Virus record (IMG/VR): IMGVR_UViG_3300002835_000485
Coordinates: 1 to 37,832 of that record
Direction: 5' to 3' (one strand)
Length of the DNA stretch: 37,832 nt
Source of the DNA: a virus
In this document: positions 8,015 to 33,184 of the stretch, piece by piece
How the letters are laid out: the number at the start of each line of letters is the position of its first letter
Numbering within the stretch: the stretch's first letter is position 1
Program-made: the position numbers and the translations under genes
The notes under the pieces: generated by a model
The model's input: only the letters and a program-made list of their open reading frames with translations
The model's database searches: none
Told to the model about the DNA's origin: nothing

Positions 8015-8199
8015 AGGGCGCGAGAGATCGTGAATGCTTGTTGAGGAGAAAAGTACTCGGAGTTGTAAGCGCAATGGACCGAGGAGGGAATTTCTCGTCC
8101 CTTTTTATCATAGGGTGTGACCAGATAGTAAACTCCAGCAATACCAACCATGGTTTCCAGTGAAGCTGATGCGACACGTGACTTGCGTGACTTTTTCAT
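8011..8199 (-). CDS. Small hypothetical protein, 62 aa
   Basis: Starts MKKSRKSRVASASLETMVGI at ATG 8199, overlapping the polymerase stop codon as ATGA, and ends overlapping the next start as ATGA. These overlaps are the main support. It has a basic N terminus and a short hydrophobic stretch (VGIAGVYYLV) too short and mixed to call a membrane segment. No family recognised; it is co-translated with the DNA polymerase. Confidence 0.6.
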   Translation of the reverse strand: MKKSRKSRVASASLETMVGIAGVYYLVTPYDKKGREIPSSVHCAYNSEYFSPQQAFTISRAL

Positions 8200-10991
8200 T
8201 TGATGAGACCTTTCTTGATTGCGTTGAAACGAGTTGTCAGTTTATCGATGGCCCCGATCTCACTCAGCTCTTTCATCGAGTGCTCCAAGCCAGATGGCTC
8301 TTTGTCGCCGCCAGGGTTGGAAGGAGTGACAGTCTTTTCCTTTGGCGACTTACGAATCCGGTTGTCGATTGCAACACTGGAGAAGTAAGCTCGTGACAGC
8401 GGCAGTTCAGGGATGCCAACCGCAGAATGAAAAAGGGACCAGGTGTACATGTGAGCGATTTGAAACAGAACAGCAAACTGCTCGGCGTATCGCTCGGGGG
8501 TCATGAACCAAATCTCGTCATGAATGCTCAGAATGAATCGCGATGGAATCTTGTACTCCTTGGCAAGCCAGTGGATCGAAGTGAGGAAGATTGAAAGGAT
8601 TTCCGCACCCGAAGATTGAATCGTCCAGTTCACTCGGCCAGTCTTGAAGTCGGACCCGACAGCAGCAGGTCGCATCGCAGTCGAGATCTTTGTACCCAGA
8701 CACGGGAGTTGAGGAACACGAGTTCGCATTGCGATCTCTTCCATATAGTTGAAGCAACCGGAGTCGGAACCACCTTCATACAAACCGGAGCGAAGTTTCC
8801 CCTTTTTTCCTTCGAGCATTCGGTAAGCAAAGTTCTTCACTTCCGTAGGAGACTTCTCCGGATATTTGCGACGAATGTAAGTTTGAACGGCACGAACTCC
8901 TGCTCCGTACAGAATGGAAAATCCGGCAATCTTGGCCGTATCCCGATCCACCCCTGCCAGCTTTGCCAGAGCACTGTGTGGGTCCGTGCCTGCCTCCTTC
9001 GATCCACTCAGAACGTTGTAACCGAACGGTGAACAACCGATGTGACCACCTTCCCACTTATCGCTGTAGATTGAAGCAATCTGCATTTCCTGACCGTCAA
9101 AGTCAGCGCCCACAATCTTCCAACCATCTGGAGCTTGAACTCGGGTCTTGAGTTCAGTGCCGATGCGCCAGTTCTTCGTGGAGCACATCGTAACCATGAG
9201 CGATTCCACGGTTCTACGAGTTACCGTGCCGTGGCAAAGGATCTCAGGCAGAGTTACCAGCGAGTCTTCGCCGTGCGGATTGTTGGCCCGCAGGAAGATG
9301 CGGTCCATCACACGCTTTCGCACGGAAGTCCAGTAGGACACGGAGTTGGCAATCTCGAGTGCGCGTTTGGCTTCAGGAAGGTCGCTGCTGAGGCGACCAA
9401 CCGCCATATCTTCAACGAAATCTTTACTCAGCACCCCGCCAACGTTATCGTCATTGCCTTTCGGGTGTGGGATCTTTGTGAGATTACCGTCTTCGTCGTG
9501 GTAGCACCACCCGTCATTCTTGGTGAAGATCATCGGGCTACCTTCATACTTGAGCTTCAGCATCAGGTGAGCCAGGTTGGATTTCACACCGATATGCTGA
9601 TTCTCGTCCTTAATGAAAGGGCGAACCCAGTTTGGGATGTGAGCATACTTGCCTTTCGCAGACTTGACCTCCCAATCGAGTTGTGAAACCCACGGATCTT
9701 TGCGCACCCACTGCTGAGCTTTGATGGGATCGTTGAGGTAAAGAACGCGCCAGTCTTCGTAAGTTTTCCACACCAGATCCTTACAGATCTGCGTCATTTC
9801 GTCGTTGTATTCTTTGTAAACACGCTCAACATCCTCAATCCACTCGGACCAGTTGTCGACGAGCGGAATGATCGACCCATTCAAATGGTAGTGACCGCAG
9901 AGAGCAACCATCGAGGGAGTGCTATCCAGGTACTTTGGCCACAGCGCCTGAAAGAGTTCAGCAGTGTAGTAAGCATCCTTCAGGGCGTAATCAAGAGCTT
10001 CGGTCAGAACTTGACGAATCTGCGAGAGATGAGTCGCATCTACGAAGATATCACGAACTTTTTTATCCACTGCGCCCAGTTCTTTTACGTCCTCACCGAA
10101 ATACTTTCGGACGGCTGCCACGTGAAAGTTGTAGCACTGCACAAGGCTGTTCGTAGCGCCTTTGTCAAGCCACTTCGGAGCATAACGCAACTTGCGCTTC
10201 TCCTCTGGCGTCAGACTCTCCGGGTCTTTTCCTGCAAGAACGTACAGCCAGCGTTGACCACTGGCCAATCCTGACACACCGATGTGAGCGGATAGCGTGT
10301 CGAAGTAAAAGTTTTCGGGCGCAGTCTGATCGAGAGTGTAACCCTCGCGAGCACGAACACGGTCGTAGCTGATGTTGTGACCCGGAATGAAACGGTTGGT
10401 ACCAATCGGAATCAGTTCGTGTTGATCCCACTGGCTTTCGGGGATGGTTGGATCAATCAGTTCAGAAGCTAGCCAAACATATGCAGCTTTCGCGCTCAGA
10501 GCGGTGCCAATGATCGGAAACGCACCGCCGTGAACGTAAGTCTCGGTATCGAACGTGAACGCTTCCTCTTCGGGGAACTCTACTTTCTCGATGTACCAAC
10601 CACCAGCAGCATCATTCTCAACCCACTCGTACCGGGTCCAGCCGGATTCAAACCGGAACTCTTCAGGCGGCGGTAGAGGGGGAAGTTTGCACCGGGAGAA
10701 TTGATCACCGAGCTCTTTGTAGCGGCCGACTTGGTCGCTGGCGATCTTTTCGAAATGATCACGCAAAAAATCACCCTTCAAGTCTGGAAGCGGCAAAGGG
10801 CCATCATACAGACCTGCAGGGTGATCTACAGGAACAGAAATATCAAATTCTTTCAGCAGGTTTTCTGCTTTCTGAATGGACAGACGAGACATTTTCTGTG
10901 GCTTTTCTGTGCCAAAGATTTTGTCGTGCAGGTCGTCTGACAGAACAGGGTATCCAAGTTGAGTTTTCTTCACGGACGTTAGGTTTTTCAT
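8196..10991 (-). CDS. Family A DNA polymerase, mitochondrial Pol gamma-like
   Basis: 931 residues with a 3'-5' exonuclease and a family A polymerase domain. Exo I is FDTE (D148, E150), Exo II GHNISYDR (D210), Exo III YALKD (Y335, D339). Polymerase motif A is VGADFDGQE (D630), motif B is R683-x3-K687 through YG (695-696), motif C is HDE (824-826). The segments around motifs A and B (CSPFGYNVLSG, GTDPHSALAKLAGV, ILYGAG) and the exonuclease region (SGLASGQRWL) match Pol gamma rather than E. coli Pol I or T7 Pol. It has no 5' nuclease domain; a separate 5'-3' exonuclease lies at 33386-34267. It is presumably the replicative polymerase. Such polymerases are known, as I recall, from cyanophage S-TIM5. 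Confidence 0.93.
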   Translation of the reverse strand: MKNLTSVKKTQLGYPVLSDDLHDKIFGTEKPQKMSRLSIQKAENLLKEFDISVPVDHPAGLYDGPLPLPDLKGDFLRDHFEKIASDQVGRYKELGDQFSRCKLPPLPPPEEFRFESGWTRYEWVENDAAGGWYIEKVEFPEEEAFTFDTETYVHGGAFPIIGTALSAKAAYVWLASELIDPTIPESQWDQHELIPIGTNRFIPGHNISYDRVRAREGYTLDQTAPENFYFDTLSAHIGVSGLASGQRWLYVLAGKDPESLTPEEKRKLRYAPKWLDKGATNSLVQCYNFHVAAVRKYFGEDVKELGAVDKKVRDIFVDATHLSQIRQVLTEALDYALKDAYYTAELFQALWPKYLDSTPSMVALCGHYHLNGSIIPLVDNWSEWIEDVERVYKEYNDEMTQICKDLVWKTYEDWRVLYLNDPIKAQQWVRKDPWVSQLDWEVKSAKGKYAHIPNWVRPFIKDENQHIGVKSNLAHLMLKLKYEGSPMIFTKNDGWCYHDEDGNLTKIPHPKGNDDNVGGVLSKDFVEDMAVGRLSSDLPEAKRALEIANSVSYWTSVRKRVMDRIFLRANNPHGEDSLVTLPEILCHGTVTRRTVESLMVTMCSTKNWRIGTELKTRVQAPDGWKIVGADFDGQEMQIASIYSDKWEGGHIGCSPFGYNVLSGSKEAGTDPHSALAKLAGVDRDTAKIAGFSILYGAGVRAVQTYIRRKYPEKSPTEVKNFAYRMLEGKKGKLRSGLYEGGSDSGCFNYMEEIAMRTRVPQLPCLGTKISTAMRPAAVGSDFKTGRVNWTIQSSGAEILSIFLTSIHWLAKEYKIPSRFILSIHDEIWFMTPERYAEQFAVLFQIAHMYTWSLFHSAVGIPELPLSRAYFSSVAIDNRIRKSPKEKTVTPSNPGGDKEPSGLEHSMKELSEIGAIDKLTTRFNAIKKGLIK

Positions 10992-13627: not shown

Positions 13628-15622
13628 TCACAGTTGGACTTCTTCAAGGTTGGCCACCTTGATTCCTTTCGCCCCAGGGCGGCCTTGCTTCACAGTGCTG
13701 AGGCTAAGCTCCACCTTCTTCTTGCGTGTCGAAACCCAAGGAACAGAGTAAGAGCCTTCACCAAGGTACACAAACTCAGCCTCGGCGGGTAGCCAGAGTT
13801 TGCCTTTGCTGGTTGCTTTGCAGAGGTCTTCGCCACTCAGCACCAAAGCCTTGAGTTGACCCTCAAGTTTGAAGACACACAGGTACTTCCGCTGAGAAAC
13901 TTCAGCTTCGCGTTTCGCGAGAGCCACAGGGCCATAGCCCGTGGAGATTGGACCCTTGAAAGTTGCTCCAACCTTCTTCAAGAAGCCATCCTGGGTCATT
14001 AAAACCACTTTTTCCTTCGCGTCGACGACCATAGCACCCCTTGGCCCCTTGGCCTGTTCAACCATGCCTTTTTTCAAATCAATCTTAAGAAACCGGGGCT
14101 TGGGCGGGGCTGGGGGCCTCTTCTCCCCGGTCCTCGGGCTGACGGCCAGGCTTCCGGCCGGAGGCTCCACCAGGGCGCTCCTGCGGGCCTCTCCGTGGCG
14201 TTTGGCGAGCTCAGTGATCTGTGTGTACACCCAGTTGTGGCGCACCTCTTTGTTCTTTACCAGCTCGTCTAGAGTTTTCAGGCGTTCCTCAAGGGCTTCC
14301 TTCTCGGCTTCCAGTTCAGCCTGGTCAAGACCAGTAAGTTGACGAAGACGCATCTCGAGGATTGCTTCGGCTTGGTCTCGTGTAAACTTGAATGGGCGAT
14401 CGACAAGGGCAACGAGTGCCTCTTTCTTTGAAGCCGACTCCTTAATCTTCTTGATGATTGCGTCAATCTTGTCGATGGCCTTGATGAAGCCCATCACGAT
14501 CTCAAGGCGCTGCTCGGTGAGGTCTAGCTCTTGGGAGAACTTTCGCTCCAGGCGAGCCATTCGCCACGAGAACCATTTCTGACAAATTTCAACTGGGCTG
14601 AGCTCAACGGGTCGCGTACCGTCAATAACCAGCGTTTTTGCTGAATAGCGAGTGTCGAGATCGGTGTATGCGTAGAGTTGCTCAACCAGCTGCTCAGTTC
14701 CGACATTGGGCTTCGCAACAATCGTGACACGGTCTCCGGAGAGATCAGATTCGTCGATAACTTCTGCGATTCCATCGAGTTTTCCTTTCTCTAGAGCGTC
14801 ACGAACTTGTTCACCGAGTTTCTCAGGGTTGACCCCAGGCGGGAAATTCGTGAATGTAAGTGTGCCACGATCTTTTGCCTTGCCACTTCGTTTCTGTACG
14901 CCTGACTCGTACTTAGCGCGGCAGCGAATGTTGCCAGAGCCTGTTTCCTTGTACCTCTTGAGTTCTTCGTCATTAACAATGTCGCATCCAGTTGGAAAGT
15001 CGGGAATTAGGAGTTCGCGTGCTTTCGCCTCCTTCGGAGCTTTGAACTCGCACGCAAGTTTGGTGGCCTCTACAACTGCCCGCAGAGAATGGGGTGCCAG
15101 CTTCGTTGCGAATCCGACGGCAATACCTGTGTCGCCATTCAGCAACACCGAAGGGACCGCAGTGTTAAACCGTTCTGCCTCTTGGCGAGATCCGTCGTAG
15201 TTGGGCCTGGTTTCCCAGGTGGCTTTGTCCTGTAGAAGCAGTTCAACAGCTGAGGGTCGCAGTTTGCACTCGGTGTAGCGAGCTGCAGCGGGGCCATCAA
15301 CGGTGCTGCCGAAGTTACCGTGGCCGTCAACCCAGGGGACGTTGTTGTTCCAGGTTGTGGCCATATTGACCAGAGTGCCGTAGCAATCGCCGTGCGGGTG
15401 GTAGTAACCCATCGCAAGGCCAGTTACGCGGGCGCACTTCACATAACGTTTGTCAGGCATCAACCCTTCCTCAAACATCGTCTGAAGAACGCGGCGCTGG
15501 GCTGGTTTCAACCCGTCATACATGTCTGGGATGGCTCGCCCAAGAAGGACGGCCATCGAGTAAGCCATGTAATCCTCCTTCATCTGGGAGGTTAGGTTGG
15601 TCGTTGTAAGGTTTTCTGTCAT
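13628..15622 (-). CDS. Type IIA DNA topoisomerase, A subunit (GyrA/ParC-like)
   Basis: 664 residues from ATG 15622, which overlaps the upstream stop as ATGA; the longer in-frame start at 15682 is rejected. The breakage-reunion domain begins YMAYSMAVLLGRAIPDMYDG and KPAQRRVL, with YYHPHGD at about 73-79. The catalytic tyrosine is Y116 in AARYTE, preceded by the usual arginine. A long coiled-coil arm follows (AELEAEKEALEERLKTLDEL), then a shortened C-terminal domain (ending near VANLEEVQL) that could be a partial beta-pinwheel. The enzyme passes one duplex through another to relieve supercoils or decatenate replicated phage DNA. The ATPase B subunit is not in this window. Confidence 0.93.
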   Translation of the reverse strand: MTENLTTTNLTSQMKEDYMAYSMAVLLGRAIPDMYDGLKPAQRRVLQTMFEEGLMPDKRYVKCARVTGLAMGYYHPHGDCYGTLVNMATTWNNNVPWVDGHGNFGSTVDGPAAARYTECKLRPSAVELLLQDKATWETRPNYDGSRQEAERFNTAVPSVLLNGDTGIAVGFATKLAPHSLRAVVEATKLACEFKAPKEAKARELLIPDFPTGCDIVNDEELKRYKETGSGNIRCRAKYESGVQKRSGKAKDRGTLTFTNFPPGVNPEKLGEQVRDALEKGKLDGIAEVIDESDLSGDRVTIVAKPNVGTEQLVEQLYAYTDLDTRYSAKTLVIDGTRPVELSPVEICQKWFSWRMARLERKFSQELDLTEQRLEIVMGFIKAIDKIDAIIKKIKESASKKEALVALVDRPFKFTRDQAEAILEMRLRQLTGLDQAELEAEKEALEERLKTLDELVKNKEVRHNWVYTQITELAKRHGEARRSALVEPPAGSLAVSPRTGEKRPPAPPKPRFLKIDLKKGMVEQAKGPRGAMVVDAKEKVVLMTQDGFLKKVGATFKGPISTGYGPVALAKREAEVSQRKYLCVFKLEGQLKALVLSGEDLCKATSKGKLWLPAEAEFVYLGEGSYSVPWVSTRKKKVELSLSTVKQGRPGAKGIKVANLEEVQL

Positions 15623-15888
15623 TCGGCTTTGGGCAGAGAGCGAATTCGCTCGATCAAGGCGTCTACAGCGTCCACTGTGCAAAACCGAATCACATCGTCG
15701 GTGATCTCAGTTTCGTACGTCAGGTGCGCGTGCTTGCCCTCATTATGGCTCAGGACAGCCACTTCGTAAAGCGCACCCTCACCAACTTCGTATTCAGGAA
15801 TAACAGAGATTCCGTAACCGTTGTCAAACAATTCTTTATGCTGGAACCCAAGGGGATGGGGGAAGAGTTTAAGATCTTCGAGCTTCAT
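15619..15888 (-). CDS. Hypothetical protein, 89 aa
   Basis: Starts MKLEDLKLFPHPLGFQHKEL. A compact alpha/beta pattern with alternating strands (GISVIPEYEV, LYEVAVLSH) and a C-terminal helix (DAVDALIERIRSL). Co-translated with the topoisomerase subunit by an ATGA overlap. No family recognised. Confidence 0.68.
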   Translation of the reverse strand: MKLEDLKLFPHPLGFQHKELFDNGYGISVIPEYEVGEGALYEVAVLSHNEGKHAHLTYETEITDDVIRFCTVDAVDALIERIRSLPKAE

Positions 15889-18281: not shown

Positions 18282-18494
18282 CTACTCGGCGGCCAACCAG
18301 GCGTTAATGGCCTGCTCGGCGATCTCCTCGTCGGTCATCTGAGCAGCGTAGTAAGGCTGGTCGAGAATGCAACGCACTTCCTGCTCAGCCTTATACCGAC
18401 CCCACCAGGGTGAGGGGAAGGCGGCGGCGGTGTCGGCCCACTCGAGGACGACGATGGCCATGATAGCGTCGAAGCGGGGAGGGGTGTTGCTCAT
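18282..18494 (-). CDS. Small hypothetical protein, paralogue of 18543-18731
   Basis: 70 residues starting MSNTPPRFDAIMAIVVLEWA. It shares with the gene upstream the frame RF-x-x-IMAIV, a shared charged middle, and the ending DE-x-IAE-x-AI-x-AWL-x-AE. A TATACT box stands at 18501. Two diverged copies side by side point to duplication. Function unknown. Confidence 0.62.
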   Translation of the reverse strand: MSNTPPRFDAIMAIVVLEWADTAAAFPSPWWGRYKAEQEVRCILDQPYYAAQMTDEEIAEQAINAWLAAE

Positions 18495-18500
18495 GAGACT

Positions 18501-18545
18501 AGTATACTTCGGGGGGCTTTGGTGGACGGTCGGCCGATCGGCCTA
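18501..18545 (-). promoter_or_regulatory. Promoter/terminator, divergent form V3
   Basis: TATACT (18501-18506) stands 7 bases before ATG 18494. The upstream bases include the inverted repeat GGCCGATCGGCC, a potential hairpin at the end of the paralogue gene. No shared sequence with the nine-member cassette family beyond the layout. Confidence 0.45.
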
Positions 18546-18731
18546 CTCGGCGATCAGCCAGGCGTCGATGGCGGACTCGGCGATCCGCTCGTCGGTCCAG
18601 CCTTCGAACTCCTCGTTGCCCAGGATGAAAACCACCTCGGCCTCGGCCTCTGCCCTGCAGTCCCAGCCGGCACCGTGCTCGGCCCAGGCGTCGACAATAG
18701 CCATGATCAGTTCGAATCGGTTCATTTCCAT
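18543..18731 (-). CDS. Small hypothetical protein, paralogue of 18282-18494
   Basis: 62 residues from ATG 18731 (MEMNRFELIMAIVDAWAEHG); the ATG at 18725 is equally possible. Earlier in-frame codons fall inside the promoter cassette. Helical and acidic, ending DERIAESAIDAWLIAE. See the paralogue next to it. It is read from the cassette at 18738-18803. Confidence 0.62.
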   Translation of the reverse strand: MEMNRFELIMAIVDAWAEHGAGWDCRAEAEAEVVFILGNEEFEGWTDERIAESAIDAWLIAE

Positions 18732-18737
18732 GCTATA

Positions 18738-18803
18738 AGCATAGCTCACTTTGCCGGTTTTCGAAAGGGGGCAGGCCGAACTACACGGTTCGGGTATCCG
18801 AAC
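18738..18803 (-). promoter_or_regulatory. Terminator/promoter cassette, copy 3
   Basis: Hairpin GTTCGGATACCCGAAC on the minus strand, then CCCCCTTT and a promoter: -35 TTTCGA (18761-18766), 17-base spacer, -10 TATGCT (18738-18743). The terminator stem differs from other copies (GGCCTGCCCCC). It separates the hypermodification island from the genes that follow. Confidence 0.6.
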
Positions 18804-18806
18804 TCC

Positions 18807-19286
18807 TCACTCGTTAACCAGCACAGCGTGCTTGTATTTATTGCGCAGGTTCAGTATGCGTGTTGCCATACCTTTTTGCCACGATTCACTTTGTGCTTCT
18901 CCTCTGCCAGCGTGACGTTTTGCCAACTCTTTCTCACTCACAGTGACAGCAATCAACTCCATGTCGCCGTATTCAAACATCGCGTCCAGGTTGGGGTTGT
19001 TACTCAAGCGTTCACCTTCTCCTAGTATAGTCCAGTCCTGGTGAGACTGCGACATTGAGGCCAACCACTCTCTGAATTTTGGACCCACACCTTTGCTCCA
19101 CCGGTCCGTGCCGCTGAAGACTTGTTCATCATATATGCCTAGCACGATTGTCTTCGATGTTTCAAATTTGTGGTAAACCACCAAACCTTCTTTCACCAAG
19201 GTTGACTCACCTAGAGTTTTCATGCGCTCACGCATCAAGGTGCTTTTTCCAACACCAGGGCGTCCAATGTAATACTGAATTTTCAT
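18807..19286 (-). CDS. P-loop kinase, resembles 5-hydroxymethyluracil DNA kinase
   Basis: 159 residues from ATG 19286, which overlaps the upstream stop as ATGA. The Walker A motif is GRPGVGKST (residues 8-16). The segment VFSGTDRWSKGV (56-67), the GEGERLSN turn (89-96) and the C-terminal RGEAQSESWQKGMATRI are, as I recall, shared with phage kinases that phosphorylate 5-hydroxymethyluracil in DNA (HMUDK) and leave an activated base for later substitution. The context agrees: a TET/JBP-like dioxygenase and a probable amino acid:DNA transferase lie upstream. It could instead be a general nucleotide or polynucleotide kinase, so the substrate is inferred. Confidence 0.65.
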   Translation of the reverse strand: MKIQYYIGRPGVGKSTLMRERMKTLGESTLVKEGLVVYHKFETSKTIVLGIYDEQVFSGTDRWSKGVGPKFREWLASMSQSHQDWTILGEGERLSNNPNLDAMFEYGDMELIAVTVSEKELAKRHAGRGEAQSESWQKGMATRILNLRNKYKHAVLVNE

Positions 19287-19663
19287 GAACATTCTCCTTG
19301 TTTGAGATAAAGAATTACGCGCTCTAGAGCTGAAACTGTGTCGCCAAGTAGTCCGATACCCTTATTACAACTGTTGCAGATCCACCCCCTATGCTTCAAA
19401 GAATCATGACAATGATCAAAAAGCAATTGCTGGTCAGTGCGCTCACAAATTTGACAGGGAGTCCCCAACACGGGATTAGGAACAGCAACAATTCGCTTGC
19501 GGGCTTCACGCCGTTCCTTTGATACCCGGTTGGCGCACTTCTTGCACTCTGGTCTCCAGTACTGTTTAGTGCCGTCACCGTTAGTTTGGTTGCGGTGAAA
19601 AAACTCAACCGTCAACGGCAGTTTTTGAAAACATTTGGAGCACTTTCGGGTCTCGACAGTCAC
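19283..19663 (-). CDS. Recombination endonuclease VII-like protein
   Basis: 126 residues. An N-terminal CSKC zinc pair with the CxxC partner CKKC (residues about 8-43) is followed by the endonuclease VII core: CQICERTDQQLLFDHCHD (H-x-H region), RGWICNSCNKGIGLLGD. T4 endonuclease VII resolves branched DNA before packaging. Related free-standing genes are frequent in phages and some are homing enzymes. It is the first gene after the promoter at 19687-19715 and is co-translated with the kinase. Confidence 0.82.
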   Translation of the reverse strand: MTVETRKCSKCFQKLPLTVEFFHRNQTNGDGTKQYWRPECKKCANRVSKERREARKRIVAVPNPVLGTPCQICERTDQQLLFDHCHDSLKHRGWICNSCNKGIGLLGDTVSALERVILYLKQGECS

Positions 19664-19722: not shown

Positions 19723-20778
19723 TTACCGAACAGGGTAGTGAAAAGTGCCGTGATCGTGAAACAGAAACATTTTCTGTTTGGTTACTATAGCCCCTCGCGG
19801 AGCCAGTAAATCTCCAATTACCTCTTTTCGTGCCTGGTGCAAGACCTCCCAATCAATCCCTTGCCAACCATCTCTCTCTGCCTGGGAAATTTCTTCTGAT
19901 TGTCGATCAAGGTAGTACCCCATGTACCGACCTTTCTTGACCCGGAACAGCTTTTTATAGGAGCATAAGCTGGTTTCTAGTGAGAAATTGTCCATCTGGT
20001 TTGCCAAGTGAGGGTACAGTTCCTTGCTATTTTGAAGCACACCAGCTCCAAATCCCTCCAACCAATCGTACTCAGCTGCGGTAAGTTTTTGGTTCACCCA
20101 GTCATCCTTACCAGCTGCGAAACACAAACCGTTTCGATGACTTTTACTCCCTGAGTAGTCAGCGAGGAAGAGTGTGGGGCACTCCAAAGGTATGTTACAA
20201 GTGTGCTTTAGAGTTTGCAGATAAAAGAACGTCGTATACCTTCCAAACTTGTACCAACTTCCTTTGACAATGTCCCAGAGTTTGGAGAAATTCTCTTGGG
20301 GGGATCCTGAACAAATGGCGTTAAACTTGCTATACTGACTGCGACCTCGAAGCCAATCTTGGTAGGAATCGTACATGGCAGGCAGGTGCCCCTTACTCCA
20401 CTTCGTGTCGACTTGGTATCGAAGACGAGGGTAGTTTTCGTTGTTCCACTCTGTAAATCTCTCGACAGAGGCCAACTCTTCATCGGGGAACTCTTGCTTA
20501 TACACCCACGCTGTGGGTAAGTTGTATGTGTGATACAGCCAAGCGAACCACAATTTCTCTTCGACGTTGTGCTCGTACCGCTGGTTAAGATAGTTCATCA
20601 ACCATAACGCAGGGTCGCAGTCTCCATTGGCAACCGACCAAGCGTACCACCGAATGAAACCTTCCCGCCTGTTCCCTAACTCACGGTAATCATGACCAAC
20701 GTTCTCTTCATCTGCACGGGTAACATCAACCGCAGCGCCTCTGCTCACGTTATTCTCGAGGCCCATAGTTCTGCTCAT
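19723..20778 (-). CDS. Probable amino acid:DNA transferase-like protein
   Basis: 351 residues from ATG 20778; starts at ATG 20766 or GTG 20748 are also possible. The recognisable domain starts near REGFIRWYAW and reads SVANGDCDPALWLMNYLNQR, LWFAWLYHTYNLPTAW, KQEFPDEELASVERFTEWN, then FQ/YQVDTKWSKG and FGRYTTFFYLQ. From memory this order fits the ADDT/alpha-glutamyl-putrescinyl thymine pyrophosphorylase clade, helical proteins of DNA-glycosylase type that replace an activated hydroxymethyluracil group with an amino acid. All usable starts overlap the plus-strand phosphatase gene by 57-87 bases. The recognisable domain itself starts about 40 bases beyond that gene. Family call moderate; catalytic residues not identified. 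Confidence 0.6.
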   Translation of the reverse strand: MSRTMGLENNVSRGAAVDVTRADEENVGHDYRELGNRREGFIRWYAWSVANGDCDPALWLMNYLNQRYEHNVEEKLWFAWLYHTYNLPTAWVYKQEFPDEELASVERFTEWNNENYPRLRYQVDTKWSKGHLPAMYDSYQDWLRGRSQYSKFNAICSGSPQENFSKLWDIVKGSWYKFGRYTTFFYLQTLKHTCNIPLECPTLFLADYSGSKSHRNGLCFAAGKDDWVNQKLTAAEYDWLEGFGAGVLQNSKELYPHLANQMDNFSLETSLCSYKKLFRVKKGRYMGYYLDRQSEEISQAERDGWQGIDWEVLHQARKEVIGDLLAPRGAIVTKQKMFLFHDHGTFHYPVR

Positions 20779-21099
20779 AAAGTTCAATCATGTGGTACAG
20801 GTAAGGTGGCTCCTTTGCATCGTAAGATCCCGAGAAAAATGCGAGAAGTTTTGGAGAATCTTGGATATTGTCCGCACAACCATCGTTCCCAAGGCATATC
20901 GGCAGATTTGCTGGATTGGGCGGACGTCATCGTCTGCATGGGCAATGTTCACGAAAAGTATGTCACTGTGCACTACCCGCAGCATTGTCACAAAGTGACA
21001 AATTGGCTTGTAGATGACCCTCATTTTGCTGTTGGCACAGAAAAGCATTACTCCGTTGCCAACCAGATCCAAGAGTTTGTTCTCAGCCGATTTTGTTGA
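20692..21099 (+). CDS. Low-molecular-weight protein tyrosine phosphatase-like; only plus-strand gene
   Basis: 135 residues. The N terminus is the LMW-PTP P-loop: VLFICTGNINRSAS, with nucleophile C8 and R14 in CX5RS. Then VQSCGTGK, HRSQGI, a WADVIVCMGNVHEKY helix-strand, and LVDDPHF (D108/D109) as the general-acid loop. All expected landmarks are in order, so the gene looks intact, slightly shorter than the usual 150. It overlaps the transferase gene head to head and the amidoligase gene tail to tail (17 bases), and no good SD precedes it. The substrate could be phosphotyrosine, another phosphomonoester, or arsenate. Its position inside the modification island is notable, but a role there is only inference. 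Confidence 0.85.
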   Translation: MTNVLFICTGNINRSASAHVILEAHSSAHKVQSCGTGKVAPLHRKIPRKMREVLENLGYCPHNHRSQGISADLLDWADVIVCMGNVHEKYVTVHYPQHCHKVTNWLVDDPHFAVGTEKHYSVANQIQEFVLSRFC

Positions 21100-22021
21100 T
21101 CCACTCTTCAACTTGCTTTGCAGAGCATTGCTCCAGGTTCAAGTCTTTTCTCATGTTGTTCAACCGTTCTGTAACAACTTTGCGCGAGTTTTTGTCGAAA
21201 TTGGTGTACTGATAACCAACCTCCATGCTGTGGTTGTAAGGCAAAAATGCCGGAAATTGGTAATTGTATGCATTCACTATCTCACTAGGGGGCGGGTTAT
21301 CCCAGACTCGAGTCATAAACTCAAACACCCAAACAAAACAAGAAGTGACTTCAAAAAAGTCAAGGGTGTTGGTAAAGTGACGGAATTCCACCGTGTCTGT
21401 TTCCTTCAACTGCAGCAAATTGATACCTGCCCGTGTCGTCAGACCCCAGGCAGGTTCGCCATGCTTGTCTTGGGGAGCGTGTGCAGCCAGGAACTCCTCT
21501 ACCGATCCCGCGTTCAAAGCTCGCTCAACCCTGTCTCGGGGTACAGCATACTGGTGTGAAACTTTGCGGCGGCGGTAACGTTTCATCGCACCTTGGTACT
21601 CCTCTTTTGTTTCAAACTGTTCAAGGCAGGGGACCGGAATCGGCTCAATTGCTTCATAAATTGCGTTCTGATTTTCATCAACATACCGCAGCAAAGTTTT
21701 TAACGCTTTCAGGTCTTCGGACAACCCTGGAACACGAACATGCAAATGCAGGTTAGTACGGTAATTCAGCTGTGGACCTATGCCTGCAGCCATCAAAGCG
21801 TCAAAGAAGTCGACTTGCTCTGCAATTGTTTCCGTCGGTCGTGAGTTAATTTCACCCCCCTTTGTGTACAGCAACCCTTTGGGGTCGTTTGCGATGCCCG
21901 TCGAACTCACGATCGAGTAATCTTTCTTGTTCCAACTTAGACCATCGGGCAGCTTTGCTTTGCGGTTGATGTCACCGTACTCGTATTCTGCACCGAACGT
22001 AATTTTCTTGGGATCAATCAC
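21083..22021 (-). CDS. Amidoligase (COOH-NH2 ligase) family protein
   Basis: 312 residues. The landmarks of the amidoligase family (ATP-dependent, glutamine synthetase-like fold) are in order: FGAEYEYGD with E12/E14, KGGEINSRP with E57, NLHLHVRV with H92/H94, a basic stretch RYRRRKVSHQY, and TVEFRHFTNT near residue 215. Such enzymes join a carboxylate to an amine, using ATP. The ATG overlaps the stop of the glutamine amidotransferase gene (ATGA), so the two are co-translated and the amidotransferase probably supplies ammonia. The substrate could be an amino acid or a modified DNA base; not shown by sequence. Confidence 0.8.
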   Translation of the reverse strand: MIDPKKITFGAEYEYGDINRKAKLPDGLSWNKKDYSIVSSTGIANDPKGLLYTKGGEINSRPTETIAEQVDFFDALMAAGIGPQLNYRTNLHLHVRVPGLSEDLKALKTLLRYVDENQNAIYEAIEPIPVPCLEQFETKEEYQGAMKRYRRRKVSHQYAVPRDRVERALNAGSVEEFLAAHAPQDKHGEPAWGLTTRAGINLLQLKETDTVEFRHFTNTLDFFEVTSCFVWVFEFMTRVWDNPPPSEIVNAYNYQFPAFLPYNHSMEVGYQYTNFDKNSRKVVTERLNNMRKDLNLEQCSAKQVEEWINKIG

Positions 22022-22680
22022 GGCACAAGCTCCTTAACCTCAGTAATTTTATGCAAAGAGTGGGGCCGATAAACGATGCCTGGCGTACACCGCTCTGCCT
22101 CCTTCAGACCGGCCCTAAGGGCGATGTCGGCGGTGCTGCAAACAAACCACCCATTGGGCACCTTAGCGTGGTAGAGGGGCCTCTTACCGTTGCGATACCA
22201 GGCCATACCACCCAGAAGCCTAAGCTCACATACTGCCATGCTTGCTTCCGGGAACTCTTCCAAGGGTTCCTTACCGGAGTGGGCACAGTGATAAAGCAAT
22301 TCACTATCGTTAGAGGTAGAAAGCTGATAACCGTACTCGCCCCAGTAGGAGGGTGGGCGCTGGTCAATCACCCCGTTGTGCGCAATCGCAAAGTCAGCGT
22401 GAATTTGAATCGGTTGGTTGTACCGCAGATCGGAAGTGCTGTACCGGGTGTGACCAATCAAGCGCAGCTCATAATCTCCGGGCTGAATGTCATCGAAGTA
22501 GTTTTCGACAAACAGTTCGGCTGATAAAGGAGCGTTGCGAGTTACTAACTCACCTTGAACAAATGTAGAATACCCTGTTGCATGTTTGCCTCTGACTCGA
22601 GACTCCACGAAAAGCTTTTTCAGAGTGTCGATTTGTTGTTGTGTAGGGCCTTCCAAGTAGGCCCCCATGATACCGCACAT
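22018..22680 (-). CDS. Class II glutamine amidotransferase
   Basis: 220 residues. The enzyme begins MCGIMGAYLEG, so C2 becomes the N-terminal nucleophile after Met removal. Further GATase II landmarks are RGKHATGYS, GHTRYSTSD (about 77-85), AHNGVI (about 103-108) and TSNDSELLYH. It releases ammonia from glutamine. There is no synthetase domain, so the partner must be a separate protein; the amidoligase it is co-translated with is the obvious candidate. It follows the TET/JBP-like gene with a TAATG overlap. Length matches the isolated glutaminase domain. Confidence 0.9.
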   Translation of the reverse strand: MCGIMGAYLEGPTQQQIDTLKKLFVESRVRGKHATGYSTFVQGELVTRNAPLSAELFVENYFDDIQPGDYELRLIGHTRYSTSDLRYNQPIQIHADFAIAHNGVIDQRPPSYWGEYGYQLSTSNDSELLYHCAHSGKEPLEEFPEASMAVCELRLLGGMAWYRNGKRPLYHAKVPNGWFVCSTADIALRAGLKEAERCTPGIVYRPHSLHKITEVKELVP

Positions 22681-24104
22681 TAGTTTTCGGTGTACCAGTA
22701 GTTTGTTCGAGAAGCCTGTGGGCAGTGCTTGGCTCGGTACTCATCCCACTCGTTACTCACCCACATGGAAGGAAAAACACCGCTAAACTTGCCACCATCG
22801 TTTTTACGGTAGCGGTCTTCATATTGCTCTTGAGAGTAAGCAATAAACTCTTTACGGCAACACTCAGCTTGATAATCGTCGAGCTTAGCCATGCCATCGC
22901 GGGCGTAGAACACCAGTACAACGCTTTCAGCAGTTCCGGTTTTGTCCACGAACTCGGTCTGTCCGTGCACTCGGTTGCAATTGTCACCTACAAAGAAATC
23001 GCCATGTCGGAGGTTGAAAGCCAGGCGAAACTCTCCCATCACAAAATACTGACCGTCATACTTTTCGCCATCGTGTTTTTCGTTGGTGATGCTTGTTAGA
23101 ACAGCAACACCACGCGGGTTGTTCTTACCGTCCAGGTGCCAGAAGGTAGAAAAGTTATGGTTGATTGTGATAGTCGAGAAAGTTTTAGTTCCTAGGAGAG
23201 TATAACGATCATCCTTGCAATCTTTCATCACATTGTGAATGTAATCCCACTCCTCAGGCATTGTCTCCTTGTACAAGTCAGACGCTTGCTGGTACAACGC
23301 TTGATGAGCAACAAAATCGTCATAACGTTTCTGTGTGGTAGCAGACAAGCGCCCGAAAGGGTTGCGAGCAGAGCGGTCCATGAACCCCAGGATGTTGCTG
23401 TAAACTTTGTTCGCCCTCGTTTGAATGCTCACGAAGTTTTTATAGGAAGTGGCTGCATAAGCGACCTGATCCCCAGCGATTGCCCACGACTCCAACCAAT
23501 TGTCAAACCACTCTTGACGCAGCTGATCACGTTCTGCCAAGACTGCTTCTTTCTCGGTCAGAGGTGTTTTCTTCTTGCGGGCGATGGACTCCAGCTCCAG
23601 GATTCGGTCTTTGTTCACCAACCCTGAATCCAGAATCTTTTTAACATATAGCGAGAACCGTGCAAAGCCGGTGTGCTTGGAGACAAGGTCTTGAGCCTCC
23701 TGCAGCGTCGTGATCTTCCCTTTGGCTGCTTCTCGGAAGAAAGCCACTTGGCCATTCGTCAGGCGGGCAGAGGTGTCTGTAGTGAGCTCTTTACCACCCA
23801 CCAGGCCCCGTTGGTCAGAGTAGAGATCTTTACTGACCCATTTCCAGAAATTATAGCTTTCCGAGTTTGCTTCGATTTTAGTGACTTCGGAAAGAGCACC
23901 TTTCAAGAAGACAATCGCCCTCTTACCGTTCAGGTACACAATTGTGTTCCCGTCGATCACTCGATCGTAATCTTCTTCGGTGGGGCGGTCTCCGAGGCGA
24001 TCTTTCTCGAAGGGGAACATTTCATCAAATTCAATAACCTCGCACTCGTACTTTCCAGTGCAAGTTTCAAGGATTTCTGTCCTGGACGTGGTGGCCGTGG
24101 TCAT
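22680..24104 (-). CDS. TET/JBP-like 2-oxoglutarate Fe(II) dioxygenase
   Basis: 474 residues. The catalytic core lies at about 300-405: FSTITINHNFSTFWHLDGKN carries the HxD pair (H323, D325), then a GVAVLTSI strand, GEFRLAFNLRHGDFFVGD, NRVHGQTE with distal H380, and ESVVLVFYAR. This order (TINxNF, HxD, GDxxxGDxxxxxHG) matches the JBP/TET branch that hydroxylates thymine or 5-methylcytosine within DNA. The 2-oxoglutarate arginine usually sits about 15 residues after the distal His; here the nearest candidate is R402, 22 later, which is unusual. Residues 1-300 are mostly helical and unrecognised and may bind DNA. It heads the operon with the amidotransferase and amidoligase. Confidence 0.78.
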   Translation of the reverse strand: MTTATTSRTEILETCTGKYECEVIEFDEMFPFEKDRLGDRPTEEDYDRVIDGNTIVYLNGKRAIVFLKGALSEVTKIEANSESYNFWKWVSKDLYSDQRGLVGGKELTTDTSARLTNGQVAFFREAAKGKITTLQEAQDLVSKHTGFARFSLYVKKILDSGLVNKDRILELESIARKKKTPLTEKEAVLAERDQLRQEWFDNWLESWAIAGDQVAYAATSYKNFVSIQTRANKVYSNILGFMDRSARNPFGRLSATTQKRYDDFVAHQALYQQASDLYKETMPEEWDYIHNVMKDCKDDRYTLLGTKTFSTITINHNFSTFWHLDGKNNPRGVAVLTSITNEKHDGEKYDGQYFVMGEFRLAFNLRHGDFFVGDNCNRVHGQTEFVDKTGTAESVVLVFYARDGMAKLDDYQAECCRKEFIAYSQEQYEDRYRKNDGGKFSGVFPSMWVSNEWDEYRAKHCPQASRTNYWYTEN

Positions 24105-24168: not shown

Positions 24169-24771
24169 CTACTGGTGGTATTCATACTTGGTGTCGAACG
24201 CAGCTCGAATTATGGACTGAAGCCTCCGGGCCACGTCCAAGTCCTTACCGCAGTAGATTGTGGTCTTGAGCAGGTCGCTGTACACCTCAGGCTCTTCTTT
24301 TGTGATGGCCACATCGTAGAAATTGATGCGATAGGCCACACCCAGGTCTGCACACTGGGTGTTGATTCGGTTTGCTTCAGCGATGAAGTTGGGGCCATGA
24401 CCTTTAACTCCGTCGTCACGGTTCTTCATGTCGAGATAGGCGTGAAGCATCTCGTGAAGCAAGGTGCTGCGAACTTGCAGGGGATCTTTCGCAGCGTGGC
24501 GGGCGAGTTTGATTTCCCCAGTTCCTCCGTTATTTGGCTTGTAAGTCCCCCATTTAGTTCTGTAACGACCTTCCCACTTGAGACGCGGATACGAGTTCCA
24601 GGTCTCTCCGTTTTCGTCGGTGCGAGAGACAACCTTGGGGACCGGGAGTTCTCCGTTGAAATACTTCGCATTGAACTCGGCGTACAACTCGCCAAGGTCA
24701 TAAATCGCGCAAGGGTTGGGGCAGAACCGTTCAAGAAACGAGTTTGAAACTACCGTTTTGAATTCCGTCAT
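24169..24771 (-). CDS. SprT-like zinc metalloprotease
   Basis: 200 residues from ATG 24771, overlapping the stop of the gene before it (TGATG); the longer in-frame start is rejected. The SprT-like core begins LYAEFNAKYFNGELP and has HEMLHAYL (H106, E107, H110) with the third zinc ligand H125 in GHGPNF, the exact arrangement of SprT/Spartan proteases. Spartan-type enzymes cut proteins crosslinked to DNA. The C-terminal part lacks an obvious zinc ribbon of the long forms. It lies directly upstream of the dioxygenase gene, separated by 64 bases, so it may serve the modification island or general DNA repair. Confidence 0.83.
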   Translation of the reverse strand: MTEFKTVVSNSFLERFCPNPCAIYDLGELYAEFNAKYFNGELPVPKVVSRTDENGETWNSYPRLKWEGRYRTKWGTYKPNNGGTGEIKLARHAAKDPLQVRSTLLHEMLHAYLDMKNRDDGVKGHGPNFIAEANRINTQCADLGVAYRINFYDVAITKEEPEVYSDLLKTTIYCGKDLDVARRLQSIIRAAFDTKYEYHQ

Positions 24772-25013
24772 CAGTCGCGAGCGGAGTGGATGGAGTCGTT
24801 GATCTTCGCGGCGTAGGCCGTGGGGCTCATGCCGGTGACGGCGGACCTCCACTCCAGGAAGGCCACCTCGGCCCGGTCGCAGAGGTCTTCGTACTTGGCG
24901 ATGGCATGCGGTGCCCAGGGGCTGGCCATGGCACCCTGCTTGTGGTAGAAGGCCAGCTTGGCCTGGGTGGCTTGATCGTAGAGGGCTTTGAGTTGGGTCT
25001 GAACGTCTTTCAT
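24771..25013 (-). CDS. Hypothetical helical protein, 80 aa
   Basis: Starts MKDVQTQLKALYDQATQAKL. Two long helices, with Ala and charged residues, a Pro-Trp loop (ASPWAPHA) and LCDRAEVAFLEWRSAVTG. It is coupled to the SprT-like gene and read from the cassette at 25020. It is GC-rich compared with its neighbours. No known family. Confidence 0.65.
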   Translation of the reverse strand: MKDVQTQLKALYDQATQAKLAFYHKQGAMASPWAPHAIAKYEDLCDRAEVAFLEWRSAVTGMSPTAYAAKINDSIHSARD

Positions 25014-27925: not shown

Positions 27926-28300
27926 TTAAGGTAGCGCCTCCAGTGCGCGGCGGATGGTGTCCCAATCAGAATCTTCTTGATAACTGCAGGGGAATTCATC
28001 TTTAGAAAGCCTTTGCAAGATTCCCAGCGCCTGCTCCTTCAAACTCGGCGGCTTGGGGCGGCGTTGAGCCCTAAGGCTGGCCACTGTAATCCCATCGAAA
28101 TACCGATCCCCTTCTGGAAGTGCGGATCCGCCTGCCAACTCAATGATGGCCTCCAGTTCCTGGTCTGCGCCCCATTGGGCGGCGCGAGCGGCGATGTGTT
28201 CGTCGCTCAATGCAACTCGAACCGGGGTTCCTTCGTGCCAGATTTCGGCCACCCACTGCTGCACCAGCTCCGGCGGCGGTGTAAGTTTGGGTTCAGTCAT
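27926..28300 (-). CDS. Hypothetical protein, TPPPELVQQW family, copy 1
   Basis: 124 residues from ATG 28300 (MTEPKLTPPPELVQQWVAEI). A second family member lies at 32608-32937. Both share TPPPELVQQW, AAQWGADQELEA, RRPKP, and the ending DTIRRALEALP. From memory this family is recurrent in marine Synechococcus phages and in cyanobacterial genomes. Helical, with no catalytic motif. Function unknown. Confidence 0.7.
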   Translation of the reverse strand: MTEPKLTPPPELVQQWVAEIWHEGTPVRVALSDEHIAARAAQWGADQELEAIIELAGGSALPEGDRYFDGITVASLRAQRRPKPPSLKEQALGILQRLSKDEFPCSYQEDSDWDTIRRALEALP

Positions 28301-28484
28301 TGCATGCCTCCTCTCGAAGTTCAGTCGTAATCCAATCAATCTGAGGACCAAACTCCTCCTCCAACCATATTGCCACCTCGCGGATCGCGGCGCGGGCTTC
28401 CGGTTGGCCAGTAGTTTTTGAACGTGCGTATTCAACGTAGATTGCGTGTTGAACCCGATTCACTAACGAGTCGTAGTCACTCAT
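28293..28484 (-). CDS. Small hypothetical protein, 63 aa
   Basis: Starts MSDYDSLVNRVQHAIYVEYA at ATG 28484, which overlaps the upstream stop (ATGA); an in-frame start at 28517 lies inside that gene. Helical, ending in ITTELREEACND. No family known. Confidence 0.6.
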   Translation of the reverse strand: MSDYDSLVNRVQHAIYVEYARSKTTGQPEARAAIREVAIWLEEEFGPQIDWITTELREEACND

Positions 28485-30373: not shown

Positions 30374-30652
30374 TCAAAAAACATCGTTAGGTTGGAAGAC
30401 AGCATTCTCTCTTTGTGCCCATTCAATCAGTCTGTCGCCCAAATCAAGAGCCATCTCAGGGGTGAGAAGAATCTCCTCGAAGTCGCCCCATTGTGAGCGC
30501 CGACCGAGCAGATAACCGACTGCGTTACGAAGGCGATTCCAGAGAGGTAGCGGTGAGAGGTGAATTTCAAGGAAGGCATCATTTTCATCCGCCGAAACTA
30601 CGAAACTATGCTCAATGCTTCCGCAGGGGCAAATGAATAGAGTGCGCTTCAT
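30374..30652 (-). CDS. Hypothetical protein, 92 aa
   Basis: Starts MKRTLFICPCGSIEHSFVVS; a CPC pair near the start and a histidine suggest a possible metal site. A strand-rich N terminus, then helices (LLTPEMALDLGDRLIEWAQR). ATGA overlap with the HAD phosphatase gene upstream. From memory similar small proteins occur in T4-like cyanophages, without known function. Confidence 0.64.
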   Translation of the reverse strand: MKRTLFICPCGSIEHSFVVSADENDAFLEIHLSPLPLWNRLRNAVGYLLGRRSQWGDFEEILLTPEMALDLGDRLIEWAQRENAVFQPNDVF

Positions 30653-31041
30653 TGTTTCACGTGAATTACGGGAACATTATTCCTCTGGAGCATTTCGATA
30701 TTCCCTGCGTTATCGTCAGCCCACACAAGCGGATCGCCGTAGAAAGAACGAATCCTGTTTAGGTGATCTTCCTTGATTACGTGGTCCGGAACTCCCTCTT
30801 GGTCGTCTGGACGCATGAAGATTTGAATCGGAAGAAGTCCGTGCATCTTCAACCACTCGGTTGTTTGCGGACGCAGGCGCTCAGGGCGAGCGGTAGAGAT
30901 TAGCAGCGGACGTTCAGCCTGGAGTGCGATTGCCACAAGAAGCATCGCGGCATTCTCTCTCAGGGTTAGGAGGTTGTTCTCGTCGTAATGCTCCGAGGTA
31001 AGGGTGCCATCAATGTCAAAGACAACAGGTTGTTTTCTCAT
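30649..31041 (-). CDS. HAD-superfamily phosphatase, polynucleotide 3'-phosphatase-like
   Basis: 130 residues from ATG 31041; the longer in-frame start would overlap the upstream gene by far. HAD motif I is FDIDGTLTSEH (D9 and D11), motif II is LISTARPERLR, and motif III/IV is ADDNAGN at about 105-111 with K in between (HVIKEDHLNRI). The phrase TTEWLKMHGL ... MRPDDQ resembles the 3'-phosphatase domain of T4 polynucleotide kinase. The kinase domain is not fused; a separate P-loop kinase lies at 34956-35414. Likely heals DNA or RNA 3' ends, or acts on a nucleotide. Confidence 0.82.
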   Translation of the reverse strand: MRKQPVVFDIDGTLTSEHYDENNLLTLRENAAMLLVAIALQAERPLLISTARPERLRPQTTEWLKMHGLLPIQIFMRPDDQEGVPDHVIKEDHLNRIRSFYGDPLVWADDNAGNIEMLQRNNVPVIHVKQ

Positions 31042-31295
31042 ACCAATTTTGCTTGCAGTTTGTCCAGGGTCTGAAGAAGGTTGTTCATTCGGTTTGCCTC
31101 TTGCTGAGCCTCGTCCAGTTGCCCCCTCGTAACGTAGGTGGCGATTGTTTTCGAGCGTCCCGCCCGATAAGTTTCTGCGTAGGCGTCGGCGCATAGCGCC
31201 AGAATCGCCCACTGTTCGTTGGTCAGGGTTACCGAGCGACTAATTTCGTTCTCAGGCTCCCCTGCGAAAACAACTAGCTCTGTGTCAGTCAACAT
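31038..31295 (-). CDS. Hypothetical protein, 85 aa
   Basis: Starts MLTDTELVVFAGEPENEISR at ATG 31295. Pattern: acidic start, a helix NEQWAILALCADAYAETYRAG, then QLDEAQQEANRMNNLLQTLDK, a likely coiled coil. ATGA overlap with the HAD gene. No function known. Confidence 0.62.
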   Translation of the reverse strand: MLTDTELVVFAGEPENEISRSVTLTNEQWAILALCADAYAETYRAGRSKTIATYVTRGQLDEAQQEANRMNNLLQTLDKLQAKLV

Positions 31296-32433: not shown

Positions 32434-32611
32434 CGTAGTGTGGGTAACAAAAGAGTTTTTCAATACGTCCAACCTCAATCTCAAATTGTTCAGCCATATC
32501 AAACGGCTGGCAATCATGAGTTTCGGCTAGTTCGCTTAACTGGAGACACGTCACCTCGCGGAGTTTCTCAAGAAGAAAGCAACGGAGAGCCCGTTTATGC
32601 GCTGGCTTCAT
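32426..32611 (-). CDS. Small hypothetical protein, 61 aa
   Basis: Starts MKPAHKRALRCFLLEKLREV. Helical with a helix-turn-helix-like part (LQLSELAETHDCQPFDMAEQ). ATGA overlap with the TPPPELVQQW gene upstream. No family known. Confidence 0.6.
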   Translation of the reverse strand: MKPAHKRALRCFLLEKLREVTCLQLSELAETHDCQPFDMAEQFEIEVGRIEKLFCYPHYDD

Positions 32612-32937
32612 TCGGGTAGCGCCTCCAGTGCGCGACGGATTGTATCGGTGATCTCTGGAACCACGACATCCATTTTTTCAATCGTTCCCAGCATTTCCAA
32701 CGCAATGCTGTTTAGTGTCTGCGGCTTGGGGCGCCTGGCGGCTCCGAGATCATGCGCAGAATCGAAGTAACCATTTCGGTCAAGCCATCCGACGCACGCC
32801 TCCAGCTCCTGGTCGGCACCCCATTGGGCGGCACAGTTGGGAATGTAGATAAGAAATGGTTCCTGCAATTTGCGGCACTGGTCATGCCACTGCTGCACCA
32901 GCTCGGGCGGTGGGGTAATCGGGTGTTGATTAGTCAT
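32608..32937 (-). CDS. Hypothetical protein, TPPPELVQQW family, copy 2
   Basis: 109 residues from ATG 32937 (MTNQHPITPPPELVQQWHDQ). Same landmarks as 27926-28300, with CAAQWGADQELEACVGWLDR and AARRPKPQTL, ending RRALEALPE. The earlier start at 33003 overlaps the gene upstream and is rejected. Function unknown. Confidence 0.7.
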   Translation of the reverse strand: MTNQHPITPPPELVQQWHDQCRKLQEPFLIYIPNCAAQWGADQELEACVGWLDRNGYFDSAHDLGAARRPKPQTLNSIALEMLGTIEKMDVVVPEITDTIRRALEALPE

Positions 32938-32947
32938 GTTGGTTAAT

Positions 32948-33184
32948 TCAGTTGCCAGGAAAGGTGATCGTGAGCTCATCACTCCAGAGAGCAGAACTTT
33001 CACAGCGAGACAGGTGCATCACGCAGCCTCCTCCAACCATTGTGAAGTCAGGGTCAAGTCGAACTAGGAAAGGTTGGTTGGAGTATTCAACTCGGCAGCA
33101 AAGGTAGTGACCCGGTGCGGTAGGTCTGTTGCGAGGCTTAAGGGTTAGGTTCGTTGTGAGGGGCACGGGGTCGTTTTCGTTCAT
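32948..33184 (-). CDS. Hypothetical protein, 78 aa
   Basis: Starts MNENDPVPLTTNLTLKPRNR. Beta-rich: GHYLCCRVEYSNQPFLVRLD, with the GHYLC/R-V pattern common in phage proteins that begin P-x-x-PG-x-YL. Single-gene unit or first gene after cassette copy 7. No function known. Confidence 0.62.
   Translation of the reverse strand: MNENDPVPLTTNLTLKPRNRPTAPGHYLCCRVEYSNQPFLVRLDPDFTMVGGGCVMHLSRCESSALWSDELTITFPGN

Follow-up and report, generated by a model that had tools for sequence, protein, structure and literature searches.

A predicted amino acid:DNA transferase gene in a phage operon of thymine-hypermodification type, with a start region antisense to a phosphatase gene that was probably inverted

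The virus record IMGVR_UViG_3300002835_000485 was analyzed over positions 1-37,832; this whole stretch is referred to as the window, and all coordinates relate to it. Contigs and loci of relatives that were compared with the window are labelled L001, L002, L003 etc. The genes considered here follow one another on the minus strand in the order SprT-like metalloprotease, TET/JBP dioxygenase, class II glutaminase, amidoligase, amino acid:DNA transferase-type (ADDT) gene, endonuclease VII-like gene and P-loop kinase, with a phosphatase gene on the plus strand inserted between the amidoligase and ADDT genes. The features are as follows.

24169-24852, minus strand: SprT-like metalloprotease gene upstream of TET (PF10263, E=1.6e-12), found near the operon in several relatives.
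22680-24104, minus strand: TET/JBP dioxygenase gene (PF12851, E=9.3e-15, 54.7 bits against a cut-off of 34.9), with the HxD motif present as HLD.
22018-22680, minus strand: gene with a class II glutamine amidotransferase (glutaminase) domain (PF13522, E=3.1e-7; N-terminal MCGIMG), a predicted ammonia source.
21083-22021, minus strand: amidoligase gene, glutamine synthetase/YbdK fold (PF12224 in relatives; model with pLDDT 89.8 and Z about 10 to YbdK and to its homologue 1tt4).
20692-21099, plus strand: low-molecular-weight (LMW) phosphatase gene (LMWPc; PF01451, E=2.7e-15, 57.3 bits; phrog_12429; P-loop CTGNINRS and DP motif).
20692-20766, no strand assigned: region in which the ADDT leader and the 5' end of the phosphatase gene overlap head to head, from ORF coordinates; the leader is non-conserved and is disordered in the model.
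19723-20766, minus strand: ADDT gene counted from the conserved ATG 20766 (PF18724, phrog_3271, structural model).
19283-19663, minus strand: endonuclease VII-like HNH gene between the ADDT and kinase genes (PF02945, E=2.4e-13).
18807-19292, minus strand: P-loop kinase gene (Ploopntkinase3; PF18751, E=8.2e-11), predicted 5-hmdU DNA kinase.

The initial annotation had recognized the ADDT domain, and the profile search it proposed was run. The protein matches PF18724 with 74.8 bits (cut-off 26.2; E=1.1e-20) over residues 63-282 of 354, corresponding to profile positions 9-229 of 232, and phrog_3271 with E=3e-58. In IMG/VR 465 relatives were confirmed; the nearest named phages belong to the Ackermannviridae, at about 30% identity. 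An AlphaFold2 model was built from 29 sequences and has a mean pLDDT of 88. Its best match in VIA-align is the gp46/PUGT enzyme of Pseudomonas phage PaMx11, a 5-phosphomethyl-2'-deoxyuridine glycinyltransferase (8z2n), with Z 18.0, rmsd 3.6 and 12% identity across 252 residues; the next best match reaches Z 9.2, and 8-oxoguanine DNA glycosylases come next at Z 8-9. Foldseek alone yielded no match to the model below E=0.001, and a search of PDB sequences with the ADDT profile yielded none. The predicted product is an ADDT/PUGT-family transferase acting on DNA bases, whose helical fold also resembles that of 8-oxoguanine DNA glycosylases. The Pfam match, the structural match to 8z2n and the hypermodification-type neighbours, which in one operon include a source of 5-hydroxymethyl-dU (5hmdU; TET, PF12851) and a 5-hmdU-type kinase (PF18751), thus bear out the assignment.

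Conservation of the operon extends to relatives with about 60% ADDT identity and further, and in nearly all relatives the P-loop kinase gene lies closely downstream of the ADDT gene. The endonuclease VII-like gene is probably an insertion, since it is confined to the window and L001 (1 locus of 83). In many relatives the kinase gene is followed by a gene that matches zincin/SprT-like families weakly (49 loci downstream of ADDT, e.g. L030:7468-8157); a link of the SprT-like genes to DNA-protein crosslinks arising from modified bases is conceivable. PF12224 is matched by 11 of the 17 relatives that were aligned (best E=6.2e-9) but not by the window amidoligase itself, and the top structural matches of its model are YbdK-type enzymes, glutamate-cysteine ligases, glutamine synthetases and PafA, with Z 8-10. 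Its gene overlaps the phosphatase gene by 17 nt, 3' end to 3' end.

Among the plus-strand genes tested in the window, the phosphatase gene is the only one with family support; none of the other long plus-strand ORFs searched matched a family. The loop C8-TGNIN-R14-S15 of the phosphatase fits CX5R(S/T), and C8, R14, S15 and D109-P110 are invariant in its clade. Matches in the PDB include YwlE. Specificity of the YwlE type is set by an Ile/Thr loop residue; the phosphatase has Ile where YwlE has Thr. An arginine-phosphatase identity is only a lead.

The longest ADDT ORF extends on the minus strand from 20787 to 19723 (354 amino acids counted from TTG 20787). The in-frame start codons that preserve the whole domain are TTG 20787, ATG 20778, ATG 20766 and GTG 20748. 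All four fall within the phosphatase ORF, as the initial annotation had claimed, and they create overlaps of 96, 87, 75 and 57 nt, respectively; the earlier range of 57-87 bases is correct for the last three. Both overlapping frames encode recognized families, PF18724 on one strand and PF01451 on the other with the E-values given above. The overlap was also found in L001, which is nearly identical and stems from another metagenome, in L002, a 91% relative, and in the more diverged L131, L003 and L011. Recurrence of the same arrangement argues against an assembly error; the overlap is genuine and common to several lineages.

Alignment of the relatives revealed conservation of ADDT from Asp33 (20691-20689) onward and none before this residue. 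The Asp33 codon adjoins the phosphatase ATG (20692-20694), which is read as CAT (His32) on the ADDT strand. The first 23 residues of the model, up to ORF residue 30, are disordered, and the structure is well ordered shortly thereafter. The overlap with the phosphatase gene thus takes in no more than a disordered leader of 19-25 residues, the fold itself starting a single codon beyond the ATG of the phosphatase.

As to the start codon, two candidates are retained in the window, L001, L002, L131, L003 and L011: an ATG corresponding to 20766, which faces the His25 codon of the phosphatase, and a GTG or ATG corresponding to 20748, which faces the His19 codon. ATG 20778, the start preferred in the initial annotation, is replaced by ATA in L131, and no start codon stands at this position in L003 or L011. 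From this conservation in relatives, ATG 20766 and GTG 20748 are most likely the best candidates. The strength of the Shine-Dalgarno sequence does not decide between them (-3.0 kcal/mol for GTG 20748, -2.5 kcal/mol for ATG 20766), and many genes of the phage lack a clear ribosome-binding site; the L003 counterpart of GTG 20748 is preceded by a good one (-5.8). Between the window and L002, 0 of 32 codons in the overlap are changed as compared with 12 of 97 (p=0.04), which is suggestive for this one pair. Synonymous-site constraint was considered as proof of translation of the leader and was dropped, as it is not seen consistently in pairs other than window/L002; likewise, the open antisense frame was discarded as evidence, since several non-overlapping phosphatase genes are open in the same register. 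From the conserved starts, the leader would be translated.

In most relatives the leader is absent. A start codon stands directly before Asp33 in 76 of 87 motif matches (70 ATG, 4 GTG, 2 TTG), and the 11 exceptions consist of the clade with the inverted phosphatase (8 loci), two loci with an ATG one codon earlier and one second-site match in L034. The absence of the leader elsewhere would agree with the other option of the initial annotation, in which a rare codon near 20640-20690 serves as the ADDT start and the overlap is avoided altogether. Arguing against this option is the lack of any ATG, GTG, TTG or classical near-cognate start among codons 33-44. The sole classical near-cognate, ATT at codon 45 (20655-20653), sits within the first helix of the model and past the invariant residues N39, R40, G43 and F44, so that a start there would cut the helix and delete these residues. 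A rare start is therefore very improbable, and of the two options that had been left open the tolerated overlap is the favoured one.

How such an overlap may have arisen is indicated by the relatives. In many of them a phosphatase gene occupies the same place, between the amidoligase and ADDT genes, in forward orientation, which is the commoner one, and in 26 of 26 testable loci of this kind the phosphatase gene contains the ADDT start codon within its final 16-17 nt. Reversal of the phosphatase gene removes this start together with the region upstream of it. Where the old start would stand, the window has the complement of the phosphatase ATG; the ancestral ADDT start has been displaced. We propose that the LMW phosphatase gene was originally co-oriented with its neighbours and contained the ADDT start in its last 16-17 bases, that it became inverted in one clade and carried off that start, and that ADDT then recruited a codon on the opposite strand of that gene, ATG 20766 (facing His25) or GTG 20748 (facing His19), whereby the protein would have gained its short disordered leader. 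Altogether, that the gene encodes a transferase in a thymine-hypermodifying operon, and that the overlap stems from phosphatase inversion and a new antisense start, is given a probability of roughly 0.75. It would provide a concrete account of the origin of a head-to-head overlap, in which a neighbour that carries a start codon becomes inverted.

The inverted phosphatases cluster together in the phosphatase tree and in the ADDT tree. In the phosphatase tree the inverted and forward forms fall into different clades, and in L012/L013, the sister lineage by ADDT, a GNAT gene fills the phosphatase slot. Both observations are compatible with independent acquisition of a phosphatase gene in reverse orientation, with no inversion in place. 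We regard such an acquisition as a serious possibility, somewhat short of an even chance; it is countered by the unchanged slot of the inverted gene, still next to its partner amidoligase, and the latter belongs to the phosphatase-linked type. Inversion in place is the course we prefer. The phosphatase and ADDT genes do not overlap in L006/L007, where a gap of 49 nt separates them, or in L005, where they are about 0.7 kb apart.

A gene of opposite direction embedded in an operon, as seen in the gene order of the window and its relatives, recalls the noncontiguous operons of Staphylococcus aureus, menE-menC-MW1733, and of phage 80alpha, tha/ith (PMC7154746, PMC11087260). The antisense gene of the window differs from those in that it encodes a predicted pathway enzyme and that the start region of the gene downstream comes from its 5' end. 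By analogy, mutual repression of sense and antisense transcripts might turn modification on or off. The antisense gene lies within a co-directional operon, overlaps its neighbours and was retained in every member of the clade that was sampled, and in S. aureus as well as its phages, operons of this type have a function in gene regulation (PMC11087260, PMC7154746). However, promoter-like sites of the phosphatase gene were no better than chance (2 found, 1.9 expected), the promoter and terminator scan gave no excess over shuffled sequence, and forward orientation of the phosphatase is the commoner one. A regulatory role of the inverted phosphatase is possible, and an explanation of the arrangement as a noncontiguous operon is doubtful.

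Module counts were obtained from 149 unique contigs. These were selected for their resemblance to a small number of queries and share ancestry, and the counts therefore do not represent independent trials. In these contigs the slot before ADDT is occupied by a GNAT acetyltransferase gene in 58 and by a phosphatase gene in 80, never by both, and 79 of the 80 phosphatase genes are accompanied by an amidoligase gene. When the search was seeded with the phosphatase-linked amidoligase, the phosphatase was detected in 76 of 80 loci, and two of the remaining four (L179, L187) end inside the amidoligase gene. The amidoligase and phosphatase genes form a near-obligate pair. Clusters with a 5-hmdU DNA kinase, a kinase helical domain and an FAD oxidoreductase contain this pair as well, in L190 and L192 together with a Pfam-supported ADDT; the distant contig L190 contains in addition a PF00303 gene. 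The tight linkage of the phosphatase to the amidoligase, and not to ADDT, suggests the ligated group or the donor of that group as its substrate. In L003:5880-7705, L005:5075-6900 and L011:800-2619 two amidoligase types are adjacent, a short form, otherwise found with GNAT, and the long phosphatase-linked form.

A glutaminase gene without an FAD enzyme gene was present in 118 of the 149 contigs and the reverse in 9; none contained both and 22 neither. That the glutaminase and the FAD lyase never occur together suggests two routes to 5-aminomethyl-dU, either glycine transfer followed by a lyase or direct use of glutamine-derived ammonia. The glutaminase was also considered as the ammonia source of the amidoligase, which is disfavoured as each is found without the other. 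The near-obligate pair and the mutually exclusive glutaminase and FAD-lyase modules define a widespread operon of uncultured phages, and the module patterns lead to specific chemical predictions for new DNA bases, which could yield DNA-labelling tools.

Judged from the protein families, the operon is predicted to specify a TET-initiated thymidine-hypermodification pathway. The TET/JBP enzyme would oxidize T to 5hmdU in DNA, as its family and the finding of no other 5hmdU source suggest; the P-loop kinase would then form 5-phosphomethyl-dU; ADDT, like 8z2n, would put an amine nucleophile in place of the phosphate; and the amine would be acylated by the amidoligase, or by GNAT in its stead. This order of the enzymes and their substrates is the one we infer. 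Wen et al. in 2024 reportedly assigned glycine transfer and conversion to 5-NmdU to gp46 and gp47 of PaMx11.

In ten relative contigs of 40-201 kb, some possibly incomplete, neither a PF00145 C5-methyltransferase gene nor a gene of the PF00303 thymidylate-synthase/dUMP-hydroxymethylase family was found, which makes T a likelier TET substrate than 5-methylcytosine (5mC). Phage TET enzymes that act on 5mC are known, reportedly from work of Burke et al. in 2021, and a host methylase could provide the 5mC. If the TET enzyme of the operon did the same, ADDT would decorate cytosine and not thymine. Apart from the missing methyltransferase, the nearest characterized fold, that of a 5-phosphomethyl-dU transferase, and the occurrence of the amidoligase/phosphatase pair beside 5-hmdU kinases, in L190 together with the PF00303 gene, speak against cytosine, which we consider unlikely as the modified base.

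With thymine as the base, a further and tentative proposal is that the operon makes a thymine base not described before, in that ADDT uses ammonia from the glutaminase, the amidoligase and its phosphatase partner acylate the resulting amine, and the flipped phosphatase gene lies antisense and supplies the ADDT start. If so, ADDT would convert 5-phosphomethyl-dU directly to 5-aminomethyl-dU and replace the route via glycine and the FAD lyase. The amidoligase could, for example, attach a phosphorylated acid from which the phosphatase later strips the phosphate.

Comparison with characterized phages reveals parts of this gene set. PUGT of PaMx11, which acts in thymidine hypermodification, shares the overall fold with the window ADDT at the low sequence identity given above; in contrast to the PaMx11 system, the predicted 5hmdU source of the window is the TET enzyme, and a glutaminase gene stands where related clusters have the FAD lyase gene. 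ADDT of Salmonella phage Det7 (gp175, PF18724) is about 30% identical over 90% of its length, and its gene, like that of the window, is near a 5-hmdU DNA kinase gene (kinase 2); unlike in the window, no TET, amidoligase, glutaminase or LMW phosphatase is annotated in the 13 kb around gp175. In Ackermannviridae such as Det7, 5-NeOmdU replaces about 40% of thymidine (PMC11721090). A TET-like enzyme, aGPT-Pplase2 and a kinase are the reported thymidine-hypermodification set of Rhodococcus phage Tonitrus (PMC11955845), and Mycobacterium phage Mudslide carries the trio of TET, ADDT and PF18751 kinase. Both phages resemble the window in the adjacency of the TET-like oxygenase, ADDT and kinase genes and differ from it in that no glutaminase, amidoligase or phosphatase was reported or detected beside the trio. 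As in Tonitrus, 5hmdU in the window would derive from TET/JBP rather than from a PF00303-family dUMP hydroxymethylase.

Some observations concern the annotation of these phages and further genes. For Mudslide gp3 (L009:1768-2826) the annotated start is 1852, but similarity to ADDT reaches 84 bases further upstream, to 1768; from this similarity, the annotation probably places the start too far downstream. A gene of Caulobacter phage Cr30 annotated as "putative SNF2 DNA repair protein" (L010:4894-6222) matches the window TET/JBP (30% identity, E=5.9e-27) and is followed about 1.7 kb downstream by an ADDT gene. L006:1877-4800 contains two TET/JBP genes in tandem, and L003 and L005 likewise have more than one TET match near the operon.

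Elsewhere in the window, 8196-10991 encodes a family A DNA polymerase whose exonuclease domain matches the mitochondrial-type PF18136 (E=3.4e-60), and 13628-15682 a GyrA/ParC-like topoisomerase subunit (PF00521), which is also found near the operon in L001, L002 and L006. Two small neighbouring minus-strand ORFs, 18282-18494 and 18543-18749, encode similar proteins and look like tandem paralogues. The separate genes 27926-28435 and 32608-33003 both match phrog_32006, a PHROG of unassigned function. A PNKP-like HAD phosphatase, a NinI-like metallophosphatase and a P-loop kinase are encoded at 30649-31212 and 34264-35414, so that the window contains several other phosphate-handling enzymes.
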